Shown here one piece after another: positions 30,533-36,711 of a stretch of 36,950 nt of DNA. The DNA is from Alphaproteobacteria bacterium (lineage in GTDB: Bacteria > Pseudomonadota > Alphaproteobacteria > JAJTHO01 > CANGYM01), in assembly GCA_947458145.1 (NCBI GenBank), contig CANGYM010000005.1, positions 1 through 36,950 of the forward strand. The letters are read 5' to 3'. Within the stretch, counting starts at the first letter, position 1. Each line of letters opens with the position of its first letter. A program made the position numbers and the translations under genes. Below the pieces are notes generated by a model. The model made no database searches. It had not been told where the DNA came from and saw nothing but the letters and a program-made list of their open reading frames with translations.

Positions 30533-31765
30533 TCAGGCGGCTTGGCTCTCTCTGCGCCAAACAGGGAAAGGATCCGGCAATTTTGACCATTGTGTTATAT
30601 TAAGGGTTTTTGCCTGATCATCCCCCACCAGACAGGCATCCAGCTCGCGGCGAATCCATGCTTGGTCGTAATCAATGCCTATGAACACCAACTCTTGACG
30701 GCGATCCGCATAGACAGGATGCCAATTTTTTTTCAAAAGTTTGTGCCATTCCTTGTCTTGTGGCCACCGTTCTTTGGGTATATTTGTCCACCAAATGCCC
30801 GTGGCTTCTGTTTGCACCACAGCACCCGCCTGATGAAGATCCCCCACCCATTCAGGGCGGCTCGCCAACCAAAAAAATCCCTTGGCACGAAGGATCCCCG
30901 GCCATGGTTTTTGGGTAAAGGCATGAAACTTGGCGGGATGAAAGGGGCGACGCGCCCGATAAACAAAGCTTTTGATACCGTATTCTTCTGTTTCTGGTTT
31001 GTGGTCCCTAAAGCTATAAAGTTCTTGTGACCACAGGGGATAGGTTTCGGCCTCCCCTTCTTTGAACAGCCCCGTGTTTAAAATGGCCGACAGGTGAATG
31101 TTCCCGCGCTCCGCTTCGATAATGCGGGCAACGGGGTTAAGGGCTTTGATGACCTTATACACTATGGCTTTTGTATCAGCGTTTACCAAATCGGTTTTAT
31201 TGAGGACAATCACATTGGCAAACTCAATTTGTTCCACCAGCAGGTTCACCAGCGGGCGGTTATCATCGTCTCCCAGCGATTCCCCGCGATCTTTCAGGAA
31301 ATCCTGACTGGAATAGTCTTTGAGCAGGCTGGCGGCATCCACCACCGTCACCATGGTATCCAGCCGCGCCACATCCGACAGGCTGTTGTCGTCTTCATCC
31401 CGAAAACTGAACGTGGCCGCCACAGGCATAGGCTCTGAAATGCCGGTGGATTCTATCACCAAATAATCATATTGGCCTGATTCTGCCAGGGCCCGAACTT
31501 CTTGCAGCAAATCCTCTCGCAAGGTGCAGCAAATGCAACCATTGGACATTTCCACCAGATTTTCTTGTGTATGGGAAACCCCCGTGTGATCCCCTGCCAC
31601 CAATGCGGCATCAATATTCACCTCGCTCATATCATTCACAATCACCGCCACTTTACGCCCTTCGCGGTTATTCAAGATATGATTCAGCAACGTGGTTTTT
31701 CCGGCACCCAAAAAACCGGAAAGAACCGTGACGGGAAGTAACTTTTGATTTGATATCAATGACAT
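30533..31765 (-). CDS. zigA: COG0523 zinc-handling GTPase (ZigA type)
   Basis: A 410-aa G3E GTPase: Walker [18 protein letters not shown] (residues 15-31), [13 protein letters not shown], the metal-binding CxCC motif CICC (77-80), switch [14 protein letters not shown], and a C-terminal CobW_C domain with a long [11 protein letters not shown]. This subgroup (about 400 aa, 'SEVNID') is the Zur-regulated zinc metallochaperone group (ZigA/YciC). It is thought to deliver zinc to client enzymes during starvation. A Zur palindrome on the -10 of its own promoter supports this directly. The CobW (cobalamin) alternative is disfavoured by context. Confidence 0.92.
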
Positions 31766-32300: not shown

Positions 32301-33332
32301 TCATTTCCGATTCAACAAAGGGTGCTGGGGTGGTGCCAGATCCGGATCATCCTGTGGCCAACTGGCCGCCAGAAACAAACTGGCCACCACCACAATGAAC
32401 AAACCCGCCCCCACACCCAGCAGGGCATGAATCACACGCAAAAACGTTTCTGACGCCCCAAACAACCGCAGCAACCCCGTTTTGGATTGCAACGCCAGAA
32501 CCGCCAGCGTGGCTGTGGTGATAAAGGTCCCCACGCCCATGGCCAGCGTGGCCAAAACCCCCGCCCACACCGCGCCCATCATGCAGGCAAACACCAACAG
32601 AATAATGGCCCCCGTGCAGGGCCGAATGCCGATGGACAGAATCATCAGGGCAAGGGATCGCCGGTCAGAAGCCGCCGCCACCGCCGCAGGATCCATCCCG
32701 TGATTGCAATCTTCATGGTGGTGATGCGGCTCTTTAATATGCCATGCTTCGCGCAGGCCGCGCATCAGCAGGGCCAGACCCACCAGCGCCATAAAGCCAT
32801 AACCGGCAACCTCTAGCCACGCGGCGGCCTTTTCGATTTCATGACGGGCCAAACCCAGAATCTGATAAAGCCCCACCACCAAAACAATGGCCGTGATGGC
32901 TTGGAGCAAAGACGACAAGGCCGAAACCATAATTCCGCGCCTGAGCGTATGCCGCCCCGCCAGCAAATAGCCGGTAACAATCACCTTGCCATGCCCAGGC
33001 CCCACCGCATGAAAAATGCCATACAAAAACCCCACACTGACCAGCGATAACGTGGCCCCCAGCGCATTGGTTTCCGCCACCGCCCGCAAATCCCTGCCCA
33101 TGGTTTCATGAAACAGCTTTTGCTGGGCCTGTATCCACAGCAGCGCGGTGGCAACAGCATCTTCCCACACAGGAAAGAAGACCACCACGCCTGCCACCAA
33201 GACAAGAAACACCACCAACAGGACAAGGCGGGCCTTTCGTGTCTGCGGCGGCAAAGGGGCAGGACCGGCATCCTCGTGATGATGGGTGCATCCTGTATGA
33301 CCGTGATGATGGTGGGGGTGTTCGGGCATCAT
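32301..33332 (-). CDS. zevB: NicO-family permease, ZevB-like zinc transporter
   Basis: A 343-aa inner membrane protein with about seven hydrophobic segments and the NicO/RcnA signatures FHAVGPGHGKVIVTGYLL and ILSIGIRPCTGAIILLVF. It has a histidine-rich N-terminus (EHPHHHHGHTG and THHHEDAG) and a second His cluster in the central loop (EPHHHHEDCNHG). By sequence alone it could be a nickel/cobalt exporter. The DUF1007 partner just upstream and the downstream zur instead match the ZevAB zinc-import pair of Haemophilus influenzae. The start is 33332 or 33329; the ribosome site is weak and translation is probably coupled to the upstream gene, whose stop is 9 bp away. Confidence 0.85.
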   Translation of the reverse strand: MMPEHPHHHHGHTGCTHHHEDAGPAPLPPQTRKARLVLLVVFLVLVAGVVVFFPVWEDAVATALLWIQAQQKLFHETMGRDLRAVAETNALGATLSLVSVGFLYGIFHAVGPGHGKVIVTGYLLAGRHTLRRGIMVSALSSLLQAITAIVLVVGLYQILGLARHEIEKAAAWLEVAGYGFMALVGLALLMRGLREAWHIKEPHHHHEDCNHGMDPAAVAAASDRRSLALMILSIGIRPCTGAIILLVFACMMGAVWAGVLATLAMGVGTFITTATLAVLALQSKTGLLRLFGASETFLRVIHALLGVGAGLFIVVVASLFLAASWPQDDPDLAPPQHPLLNRK

Positions 33333-33341
33333 GGGATTTTA

Positions 33342-34019
33342 TCAGGGTTGACAGTGGATACGAACACGCTCGGCAAAAAAACGCCCCAGATCATCCGGCG
33401 CTTTGGCATTTTTATCCAACGCCCCTGCCATGGCAATGATGGCAACGTCGGGTTTGGGACGCTCTAAGGTTGCGCGACAGGATGGGGCATTGCGGATCGT
33501 CACGCCGTCTTTGTCCACGTGTTTCATATCAATATAATAACTGGGATCGTAAATCCGATAACTGACGGCCTGTTTTTGGGGATGAACAGGGTTTTCTAAA
33601 ATCAAGGTAAAGGAAAGACGGATCCGATTGTCCGTGATATCCGAGGCCACATCCCGATACCCCGTGAAGTTCACACGGGTTGTATCCGCATCCATAAAGG
33701 TAAAATAACCAAACGGTTTCAGGTTATCCAAGTTCTGCTGACCCAGTTCCAATAGTTTTTTTGTATCGAGGGTCTTTTTCTGGCCAACACCAAAATCCTG
33801 CAGGGCAAATTCGGTGTAAAATTCATCAAACAGCCACGTCTGCCGTAGACCCGTGATCTGGCCCTGTGCATCAAACAGAATTTCCGATTGCACATCAATC
33901 CACGCATGGGGATGGGCGCGGGCGGGCGCAGAACTCAGGCACAGGACAAACAGCCCTGCACCGCCAGCAACAAGAAAAAAAGATAAAGACCGCAAAATTG
34001 TTCTAGCCAAGGCTGTCAT
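33342..34019 (-). CDS. zevA: DUF1007 periplasmic protein, ZevA-like
   Basis: A 225-aa protein from the ATG at 34019: signal peptide (hydrophobic residues 8-30, cleavage near ARA), then the DUF1007 start HPHAWIDVQSEILFD and the family core GLRQTWLFDEFYTEFAL and FTFMDADTTRVNF. ZevA is the periplasmic partner of the ZevB permease. The -10 of its predicted promoter ends 9 bp before this ATG, so the mRNA would be leaderless or nearly so. A longer frame from 34076 has a GGGGG ribosome-like site but would place the Zur box inside the gene and add 19 residues before the signal peptide, so it is less likely. Confidence 0.85.
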   Translation of the reverse strand: MTALARTILRSLSFFLVAGGAGLFVLCLSSAPARAHPHAWIDVQSEILFDAQGQITGLRQTWLFDEFYTEFALQDFGVGQKKTLDTKKLLELGQQNLDNLKPFGYFTFMDADTTRVNFTGYRDVASDITDNRIRLSFTLILENPVHPQKQAVSYRIYDPSYYIDMKHVDKDGVTIRNAPSCRATLERPKPDVAIIAMAGALDKNAKAPDDLGRFFAERVRIHCQP

Positions 34020-34021
34020 GG

Positions 34022-34057
34022 TGTTATAGTATAACATGCGATGTTTTTTTAAGGCAA
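34022..34057. promoter_or_regulatory. Divergent zev/znu promoter region with Zur operator
   Basis: The palindrome TGTTATAGTATAACA (34022-34036) differs from the zigA box only in the central base triplet. On the minus strand it contains the zevA -10 TATACT (34028-34033), 18 bp from -35 TTGCCT (34052-34057). On the plus strand TATAGT (34025-34030) can serve as -10 for znu; its -35 is poor (TTCTAG 34001-34006, 18-bp spacer). One operator can therefore cover two face-to-face promoters. Confidence 0.88.
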
Positions 34058-34067
34058 GCCCAAAACC

Positions 34068-34184
34068 ATGAGCCATTTTTCCCCCAGACCCACATGCTTA
34101 TCATATTCGGCGGGTGTGCGTCTGCTTTTTGTTGCGGTGTTGCTGCTGGTGTTATGGGCTGTGATGGGCGCGGTTTTGTCATGA
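34068..34184 (+). CDS. Small predicted membrane peptide upstream of znuC, 38 aa
   Basis: The frame starts at ATG 34068, about 31 nt after the predicted znu transcription start, and ends at TGA 34182-34184, overlapping the znuC ATG as ATGA. The same 4-bp junction joins znuC to znuB. The peptide has a short polar start with a Cys (MSHFSPRPTCLSY) and one uninterrupted hydrophobic helix (RLLFVAVLLLVLWAVMGAVL). The ribosome site is weak (AAGG 13 bp upstream). The overlap, position in the operon and clean single-helix form favour a real gene. No family is recognised; a regulatory or stabilising role for the Znu transporter is inference. Confidence 0.55.
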   Translation: MSHFSPRPTCLSYSAGVRLLFVAVLLLVLWAVMGAVLS

Positions 34185-34903
34185 GTCTGGTGTTTCACAA
34201 TCTAACCGTCGGCTATGACAGACACCCTGCGGTGCATCATTTGTGCGGCACGCTGAAGGATAACAGCCTAACGGCCATTATTGGCCCCAACGGCGGGGGA
34301 AAAAGCACACTGCTAAAGGCCATTGTGGGATTGTTAAAACCCCTGTCGGGCCATATTCAAAAAACCGGTCGGTGCCAAGTGGCCTATCTGCCCCAAGTGA
34401 CCGAGATCGACCGCAGCTTTCCGGTGTCAGTTTTTGATACCGTTCTTTTGGGATTTTGGCCCGTGTGTGGTCTGTGGAGGGGCATCACAAGGCACCAACG
34501 CCACGAAGCCCTGCAGGCTCTAGAGGCGGTGGGCATGGAATCCTTTGCCGCCCGTCCCATTTCGGCATTGTCATCGGGGCAGTTCCAGCGGGTTCTGTTT
34601 GCCCGCCTGATGGTGCAGAATGCGGATGTGTTCTTGCTGGATGAACCCTTCGCCGCCATCGATAGTCGCACCACGGTCGACCTGATGCAGGTTTTAATCA
34701 ACTGGCATCAACAGGGGAAAACTGTGGTGGCGGTCGTTCACGATCTACCCCAAGTCAAAGCCTTGTTTCCTGAGGTTTTGCTGCTGGCGCGGGAGTGTAT
34801 TGCCTGGGGCCCAACCCCCGCCGTCATGACAGAAGACAACCTGCGCAAGGCCGATGGGCTGGCGCGGCAATGGCATGACCATGGCGAGGTCTGCGCCGCA
34901 TGA
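34181..34903 (+). CDS. znuC: Zinc ABC transporter ATP-binding protein
   Basis: A 240-aa ABC ATPase: Walker A IIGPNGGGKSTLLKAIVG (near residue 30-47), Q-loop LPQVTEID, signature ALSSGQFQRVLFARLM (LSSGQ in place of LSGGQ, common in metal transporters), Walker B VFLLDEPF and the switch His in VAVVHDLP. It powers the ZnuB permease for zinc import. The ATG at 34181 gives the family start MSLVFHNLTVGYD; an open frame back to 34094 adds non-family residues and overlaps the small membrane ORF. The stop overlaps the znuB start (ATGA). Confidence 0.95.
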   Translation: MSLVFHNLTVGYDRHPAVHHLCGTLKDNSLTAIIGPNGGGKSTLLKAIVGLLKPLSGHIQKTGRCQVAYLPQVTEIDRSFPVSVFDTVLLGFWPVCGLWRGITRHQRHEALQALEAVGMESFAARPISALSSGQFQRVLFARLMVQNADVFLLDEPFAAIDSRTTVDLMQVLINWHQQGKTVVAVVHDLPQVKALFPEVLLLARECIAWGPTPAVMTEDNLRKADGLARQWHDHGEVCAA

Positions 34904-35772
34904 GCCTATACACCATCCTGATTGCCCCCTTTGCTGAGTATGGGTTTATGACCAAGGCCCTGCTGGGCTGCATTCTGTTGAGCCTGAGCAGTGCCCCGCT
35001 GGGGGTTCTGTTGATGCTGCGGCAAATGAGCCTGATGGGCGATGCCATGGCCCATGCTGTTTTGCCCGGGGTGGCTGTGGGGTTTTTGCTGGGGGGGGCG
35101 TCGTTGCCCCTGATGAGTTTGGGGGGCTTTGTGGCGGGCGTTATGATTGCCGTTCTGGTGGGTCTGGCCACCCGCAGCACCACCCTGAAGGAAGATGCCA
35201 ATCTGGCCGCGTTTTACCTGATGGCCCTTAGCCTTGGCGTGTTGCTGATTTCGCTGAAAGGCAACACGGTGGATTTGATGCACCTTTTGTTTGGCAGTGT
35301 TCTGGCGGTGGATGATGCGTCTTTGCGCCTGATGGCGGGGGTGTCATCGTTTACCCTGATCACCTTTGCCCTGTTTTATCGGGCGCTGCTGACAGAGGCC
35401 TTTGATCCTGTTTTTTTGCGTTCCGTTTGCAATCGGTCGGGGGTGTTTCACCTGTTGTTTTTGGTGCTGGTGGTGGTGAATCTGGTGGCCAGCTTTCAGG
35501 CGCTGGGCACCCTGATGGCCGTGGGGCTGATGATGCTGCCGGCGGTGGCATCCCGTTTTTGGGCCCAAGGATTTGCCCCCATGATGTTGGTGGCGGCGGG
35601 ATTTGGTTTGTTTGCCAGCACGGCGGGCCTGCTGCTGTCGTATCACATCAACGTGCCCTCGGGGCCCGCCATTATTTTATCGGCGGGGGTGATTTATCTG
35701 ATATCCCTGCTGTTTGGGCGTTTTGGCAGTGTGCGGGCGCGGTATTTTCCGTTTAAACACCTGAATCAATAA
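34900..35772 (+). CDS. znuB: Zinc ABC transporter permease
   Basis: A 290-aa ABC-3 family permease with about eight to nine transmembrane segments. Conserved features are the LLGCILLSLSSAPLGVLLMLRQMSLMGDAMAHAVLPGVAVGF start (read as two adjacent blocks), the coupling helix region around SLMGDAMAHAVLPG, FQALGTLMAVGLMMLPA and the late PSGPAIILSAGVIYL. Length is normal (260-300 aa). It is coupled to znuC by a 4-bp overlap, and znuA follows 9 bp downstream. Confidence 0.95.
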   Translation: MSLYTILIAPFAEYGFMTKALLGCILLSLSSAPLGVLLMLRQMSLMGDAMAHAVLPGVAVGFLLGGASLPLMSLGGFVAGVMIAVLVGLATRSTTLKEDANLAAFYLMALSLGVLLISLKGNTVDLMHLLFGSVLAVDDASLRLMAGVSSFTLITFALFYRALLTEAFDPVFLRSVCNRSGVFHLLFLVLVVVNLVASFQALGTLMAVGLMMLPAVASRFWAQGFAPMMLVAAGFGLFASTAGLLLSYHINVPSGPAIILSAGVIYLISLLFGRFGSVRARYFPFKHLNQ

Positions 35773-35781
35773 AGGAGCCTC

Positions 35782-36711
35782 ATGATGAAAAAAACACTAT
35801 CGGCCCTCCTCCTGGTGGCAGTCATGATCATGGGGGCCAGTGCCGCCCAGGCGGAGCCGCTGAAGGTGGTGGCCAGTTTTACGATTTTGGGGGACTTGGC
35901 CAAACAGGTGGGGGGGGATGATGTCACCGTGACCACACTGGTGGGGCCCAATGGCGATGCCCACGTGTTTCAACCCACACCAAGCGACGCCAAGGCCCTG
36001 AAAGATGCCGATATGATCATCATCAATGGCTTGGGGTTCGAGGGATGGATGGGCCGCCTCATCAAAGCATCGGGCACCAAAGCCCCTGTTGTCACCGCCA
36101 GCGCGGGCATCACCAAAACCCTGACGCTGAAAGACACCGAAGATAAAAATCACGATCATGATCACCACCACCATGGCAGCATCGATCCCCATGCCTGGCA
36201 AAGCATCACCCAAGGCCGGATGTATGTGAAAACCATCGCTGGTGCCCTGCAAAAAACCGATCCCGCCAACGCCAACAACTACGGCGAAAGGGCCGCCAAG
36301 CTGGATACTGAGCTGGCGGCGCTGGATGCGTGGGTCAAAACAGAAATCGCTACCGTGCCGGCTGACAAGCGCCGCGTGATTACCACCCACGATGCCTTTG
36401 GGTATTTTGCCGATGCGTATCAGGTGACCTTTTTGGCCCCCACGGGATTTAGCACCGATGATGAACCCAGCGCCAAGGAAATGAAGCACTTAATCCAGCA
36501 AATCCAATCCGGCAAAACCCGCGCCCTGTTTTTGGAAAGCATGGGAAACCCCAACATTATCAAACAACTGGCCGCCGAAACGGGGGCCGTGGTGGGTCCG
36601 GCGCTATACACCGATGCCCTGTCCACGGAAAGTGGCCCCGCAGCAACCTATCAAGCCTTGATGCGCTACAACGTCACGGCACTGGTGAAAGCCATGCAGC
36701 AAAATCCGTGA
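35782..36711 (+). CDS. znuA: Zinc ABC transporter substrate-binding protein
   Basis: A 309-aa periplasmic cluster A-I metal-binding protein. It has a signal peptide (MMKKTLSALLLVAVMIMGAS, cleavage near AQA), a first lobe starting with KVVASFTILGDLAKQVGGD, the zinc ligand His in GPNGDAHVFQPTPSD, a flexible His/Asp loop (HDHDHHHHG) followed by the ligand IDPHAWQS, then TTHDAFGYFA with the third His, and LSTESGPAATY at the end. The His-rich loop distinguishes zinc binders from the manganese group. AAGGAG lies 4 bp before ATG 35782 and 7 bp before the second ATG 35785, which may be the true start. Last gene of the znu operon. Confidence 0.96.
   Translation: MMKKTLSALLLVAVMIMGASAAQAEPLKVVASFTILGDLAKQVGGDDVTVTTLVGPNGDAHVFQPTPSDAKALKDADMIIINGLGFEGWMGRLIKASGTKAPVVTASAGITKTLTLKDTEDKNHDHDHHHHGSIDPHAWQSITQGRMYVKTIAGALQKTDPANANNYGERAAKLDTELAALDAWVKTEIATVPADKRRVITTHDAFGYFADAYQVTFLAPTGFSTDDEPSAKEMKHLIQQIQSGKTRALFLESMGNPNIIKQLAAETGAVVGPALYTDALSTESGPAATYQALMRYNVTALVKAMQQNP

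Follow-up and report, generated by a model that had tools for sequence, protein, structure and literature searches.

A conserved single-helix membrane microprotein encoded ahead of AztABC/ZnuCBA-type zinc importer genes, a candidate accessory subunit

The window, a 36,950-nucleotide stretch of alphaproteobacterial DNA, carries a very short gene between a Zur-like operator and the ATPase gene of a zinc importer operon (Table 1). The gene almost certainly belongs to a real protein-coding family. The encoded microprotein is probably a single-helix accessory subunit of the AztABC/ZnuCBA-type zinc importer. This is the simplest reading because the peptide is conserved, is encoded nearly always beside the importer and, judging from the motif, is co-induced with it. 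Zinc import by these ABC systems has so far been described as the work of three parts, with AztD in addition in some species.

Table 1 Features of the importer locus in the window
Feature	Position	Strand	Basis and remarks
Divergent DUF1007 gene (ZevA-like)	33342..34020	-	Pfam DUF1007, E 6e-57; predicted start codon adjoins operator
Zur-like operator	34022..34036	.	Perfect 7+1+7 palindrome TGTTATAgTATAACA (= TGTTATAGTATAACA), between divergent DUF1007 and microprotein genes
Microprotein gene	34068..34184	+	ATG start, 38 codons and TGA stop; peptide MSHFSPRPTCLSYSAGVRLLFVAVLLLVLWAVMGAVLS
Invariant Arg codon (R18), start of membrane helix	34119..34121	+	Alignment: 61/61 core rows, 44/44 rows
Membrane helix, residues 19-38	34122..34181	+	Alignments and AlphaFold2
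ATPase gene (AztA-type; initially "znuC")	34181..34903	+	NCBIfam AztA 220.7 bits, cut-off 220
Permease gene (AztB-like; initially "znuB")	34900..35772	+	Pfam ABC-3; NCBIfam AztB 259 bits, below cut-off 280
Zinc-binding periplasmic protein gene (AztC/ZnuA-like, His-rich loop)	35782..36711	+	Pfam ZnuA; NCBIfam AztC 296 bits, below cut-off 350

The initial annotation placed a short frame between the operator and the ATPase gene, and the frame lies exactly there. It had also been credited with one clean transmembrane helix. In accordance, the best 19-residue Kyte-Doolittle mean of the peptide is 2.97, and AlphaFold2, given an alignment of 44 rows with three rows from plasmid records left out, predicts one helix spanning residues 10-37, with a pLDDT of ~94-98 for residues 21-38. 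The stop codon of the microprotein gene and the start codon of the ATPase gene overlap as ATGA (34181-34184), and the junction between the ATPase and permease genes is likewise ATGA (34900-34903), both as first described. The transcription start predicted ~31 nt before the ATG finds no support: a sigma-70 consensus scan of the locus returns no plus-strand promoter. The ATG lies 31 nt past the end of the palindrome. The window gene has no clear Shine-Dalgarno sequence.

Taken alone, the window frame is only moderately unusual, which is suggestive and no proof. Among dinucleotide shuffles of positions 34037-34190, 3.7% contain an ATG frame with the same end and 38 codons or more, and 0.6% contain one that also encodes a membrane helix. 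The first figure leaves room for a spurious frame, and the ATPase frame is itself open upstream, with an ATG at 34094, as would suit an N-terminally extended ATPase of which the stretch is part. Both readings are scarcely credible: the extension is not conserved in relatives whereas the microprotein frame is, and the out-of-class matches, dN/dS values and cross-validation given below contradict them. As judged from sequence comparison, the frame lies far beyond chance.

ATPase matches were taken from 385 alphaproteobacterial genomes, and the stretch upstream of each was read. In 93 of 104 loci, fetched by ATPase sequence alone, the microprotein is encoded just upstream of the ATPase gene. Eleven loci lack a scoring member. 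Six of them fall in a separate ATPase branch, most with a frame resembling a binding protein ahead of the ATPase gene; at L058 a His-rich member can be seen that scores slightly under the threshold; and G017 (L256, G017:C2:402000-409000) has an intact member ~1.06 kb upstream of the ATPase gene, the gap holding a Zur-like box and the gene of an EamA-type transporter. Nearest to the window, the same-genus genome G001 (ATPase 87% identical) carries the intact frame MSHFSPRPTWLSYPAGVRLLFVAVVLLGIWSVMGAVLS, G003 (78% identical) carries the frame MSHFTPKPSLLSVAATTRLLFVAVLLALMWLMIKTVAL, and the frame is also present in G002 (61% identical). With regard to stops and frameshifts in relatives, four of four genomes of the order examined (the window's, G001, G002 and G003) and most importers of the clade keep the frame.

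Profiles trained on half of the loci recover 49 of 60 test loci, with cores less than 50% identical to the training set, and match none of 120 control stretches. A six-frame search of whole genomes with the core profile, partly circular since members of the same class were used in training, places essentially all strong matches ahead of an importer ATPase gene; the window member is matched with an E value of 3.0e-5. The microprotein is also in place in further genomes of one alphaproteobacterial family that were outside the training set. A stronger test is the search of other proteobacteria with the alphaproteobacterial profile (E < 0.01). There, 27 of 29 matches directly precede an AztA/ZnuC-type ATPase gene on the same strand and end between -38 and +7 nt from its start; the other two have no such gene nearby. 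Carriers include Pseudomonas sp. 7P_10.2_Bac1, Chelatococcus caeni, Methylobacterium, Methylobacterium bullatum, Kushneria, Reyranella, Pseudacidovorax intermedius, Elioraea, Carnimonas, Azospirillum lipoferum, Skermanella, Bartonella sp. HY761, Thioclava and Neisseria gonorrhoeae. A tally of the genes upstream of the members by simple motifs is uninformative.

The dN/dS comparison proposed in the initial annotation shows the peptide to be under purifying selection. Over 30 pairs, which like the sample as a whole are not phylogenetically independent, dN/dS is mostly 0.1-0.4, with 0.24 for the window against G001. The proportion of differing sites is 0.40 for synonymous and 0.165 for nonsynonymous positions, and substitutions fall 275/220/478 on the three codon positions. 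A few pairs exceed 0.7 (L031/L033, L049/L273 and L072/L081).

Selection on the peptide bears on the suggestion, made in the initial annotation, that the frame is a translational coupler for the gene then called znuC. In such a leader frame, translation and a stop near the ATPase start would matter and the peptide would be idle. The ATGA overlap, seen in the window, G001, G003, Neisseria and others, fits this, as does the position of the members' ends, which for 81 of 149 is no more than 10 nt from where the ATPase is projected to start. The overlap is not universal, however, and only the conservation of the frame, as opposed to that of the junction, stands as first proposed: some members overlap the ATPase gene while others stop as much as 216 nt before it, and the G017 member is intact despite the intervening gene and box. 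Because selection acts on the peptide itself, a pure coupler is disfavoured; an invariant Arg and a conserved Trp across alpha-, beta- and gammaproteobacteria likewise speak against it. We regard it as quite unlikely.

The core of the family consists of the invariant Arg at the helix end predicted to face the cytoplasm, about ten hydrophobic residues and the motif LW-x2-V-x-WA, after which the protein ends. In the window member, the near-invariant Trp30 is present (codon 34155-34157), and GA takes the place of the WA pair close to the C-terminus. The N-terminus is more positively charged than the C-terminus in 133 of 149 members (net charge before versus after the helix). By this bias and the positive-inside rule, the protein is therefore predicted to be oriented N-in, which puts the Arg on the cytoplasmic side of the helix and the short C-terminus on the periplasmic side. 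For 137 of 149 members the start codon chosen is ATG, the starts being choices and not data, and a Shine-Dalgarno-like match precedes an ATG in 61 of 149, as against 23 expected.

Some members have His-rich N-termini (for example L046, L083, L143 and L235), in part as long tails ahead of the helix, and the charge bias would place these tails in the cytoplasm. The microprotein could then be a zinc-responsive brake, its tail binding zinc and shutting the importer by trans-inhibition when zinc is replete. Yet at least three His residues before the helix are found in only 28 of 149 members, and the window member has a single His. With so few His residues in most members, a role of the tail cannot be the common core function, and the brake is unlikely as an account of the family. 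In His-rich members, binding of zinc by the tail may bring a further role, in regulation or in zinc handling. At L016 and L015, the ATPase frames themselves begin with His-rich stretches (MDHIQAHEHGVHFHG and MSAAPKPATHDHAHG), possibly a second site for zinc on the cytoplasmic side.

The Zur-like operator reported at the head of the operon is confirmed as a perfect palindrome. Zur-like boxes, counted when they agree with the consensus of the window palindrome at 11 or more of 14 positions and fall between -220 and +30 of the chosen start, lie ahead of 85 of 149 family members, compared with 1.8 expected from shuffles. The window palindrome resembles the Zur motif upstream of aztA in Paracoccus denitrificans, which has been tested by EMSA (PMC5387054). 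Zur is predicted to bind the window operator and to control the operon. On the other side of the operator, the DUF1007 gene probably starts at 34020; an alternative upstream ATG at 34076 would make the frame cross the operator. This start codon is 2 nt from the operator, and a leaderless transcript or a very short leader is therefore likely. The DUF1007 gene and a NicO gene form a ZevAB-like pair (32301-34020, minus strand) that faces the importer across the one operator. A ZigA-type zinc metallochaperone GTPase is also encoded near the importer (30533-31765, minus strand; NF038288, 604.9 bits, cut-off 600).

The importer had been labelled a znu operon. Its NCBIfam scores for ZnuC (95.7 bits, cut-off 306) and ZnuB (92.1 bits, cut-off 284) miss the cut-offs for E. 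coli-type ZnuCB. On the NCBIfam scores, the importer is better described as AztABC-like than as E. coli-type ZnuCB: the ATPase narrowly passes the AztA cut-off and is far under that of ZnuC, and the permease and binding protein fall below those of AztB and AztC. The closest solved relatives of the permease are 7kyo/7kyp (PDB). The AztABCD system of Paracoccus denitrificans shares the NCBIfam ATPase branch and has a Zur-type operator upstream of aztA (PMC7731109, PMC5387054). Loci of this type differ in having the AztD chaperone and no microprotein, whereas no AztD gene is detected in the window's genome (G000; E 1e-30), a draft in which the contig ends 239 nt past the binding-protein gene.

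On the ATPase tree (FastTree, with many weak forks), presence and absence of the microprotein require 9 changes, as against 28 when shuffled. One tree group without the microprotein comprises the AztABCD-type loci of Sinorhizobium, Mesorhizobium, Klebsiella, Paracoccus, Qingshengfaniella and Devosia together with Agrobacterium UMA610 and Biostraticola; AztD is seen in only some of these loci. A Sit/Mnt-like ATPase group of 14 likewise lacks the microprotein. Since AztABCD-type loci (Sinorhizobium, Klebsiella, Paracoccus and others) do without it, an importer of this kind has no intrinsic need of the microprotein.

The same distribution could mean that the microprotein is a membrane-anchored zinc handler that stands in for AztD near the transporter and is not a structural subunit. 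The AztABCD-type loci examined are without the microprotein, and AztD occurs in two of the 385 genomes, neither of which has the microprotein. With AztD so rare, however, the anticorrelation amounts to about one evolutionary event; moreover, AztD is large and periplasmic, while the His tails are predicted to be cytoplasmic. This reading is very unlikely.

Neisseria gonorrhoeae has an unannotated member, MTPSLLLSGLTFRLFLALIAVFLLWGVYLWAVSV, in front of znuC (L283 3400-3504), and the two genes meet at an ATGA as in the window; the profile score is a modest 13.4 bits. The likeness of the Neisseria znuCBA/mntABC operon (NGO0170-0168) to that of the window thus extends to a related ATPase, 49% identical, and to a family member with the ATGA junction. 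The operon has been reviewed as three genes only, znuC, znuB and znuA (PMC9280163). In databases, the microprotein is labelled "hypothetical protein" in Skermanella rosea (WP_203101353.1), S. mucosa (WP_202684557.1) and Thioclava (XBA80629.1), and the remaining records examined give it no label. Pfam, NCBIfam, PHROGs and PDB sequences hold no convincing match to it, with isolated weak matches such as DUF6404 for one member. No description of it turns up in openly readable papers linking small proteins to Zur, znuC, azt or Neisseria, and the text on the Pro-SMP finder is silent about zinc. Annotation and literature alike appear to have overlooked the microprotein, and the case illustrates how conserved genes are dropped by annotation for their size.

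The microprotein is a new family within a known kind, the single-helix accessory membrane microproteins. KdpF of the KdpFABC potassium pump is a single-helix protein of ~30 residues. Like the microprotein, it is encoded first in an ion-transporter operon; unlike it, KdpF belongs to a P-type ATPase transporter, and the microprotein operon has a Zur-like regulator. The Pfam model of KdpF matches none of 44 members (E 0.1). CydX is encoded downstream of cydAB, and AcrZ apart from acrB. CydX of cytochrome bd and AcrZ of AcrB are short single-helix accessory subunits, conserved and poorly annotated because of their size (PMC4325964, PMC7267776). They resemble the microprotein in these respects but have unrelated partners and no sequence match; the CydX/YbgT Pfam model finds none of the members. 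By analogy, the best reading is that the microprotein would work like KdpF or CydX.

As an accessory subunit, the microprotein would act as follows. When zinc is scarce, Zur would leave the operator, and the microprotein would be made first, together with the ATPase, the permease and the binding protein. It would insert N-in into the membrane, most likely packing against the permease via the conserved Arg and the Trp-bearing face, and would help the complex of permease and ATPase to assemble or to stay stable, or else adjust its activity. In a subset of species, the His-rich cytoplasmic tail would probably also bind zinc leaving the permease. Translation, binding to the permease and the effect on transport are all predictions of the model, and the role as a ZnuB stabiliser suggested in the initial annotation is likewise a prediction.

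A bolder form of the proposal is that the microprotein is an undescribed fourth subunit of proteobacterial cluster A-I zinc importers, oriented N-in, needed for full function under zinc starvation, lost in the AztD lineage and unnoticed in gonococcal znuCBA; we consider it evenly poised between right and wrong. If true, importer reconstitutions and mutants to date have been short of one component, and the assembly of the importer and its control by zinc become directly testable.

At the end of the contig (36840-36950), downstream of the importer genes, the stretch gcaaattagaaatgtccgc is present twice and is possibly the end of a mobile element.
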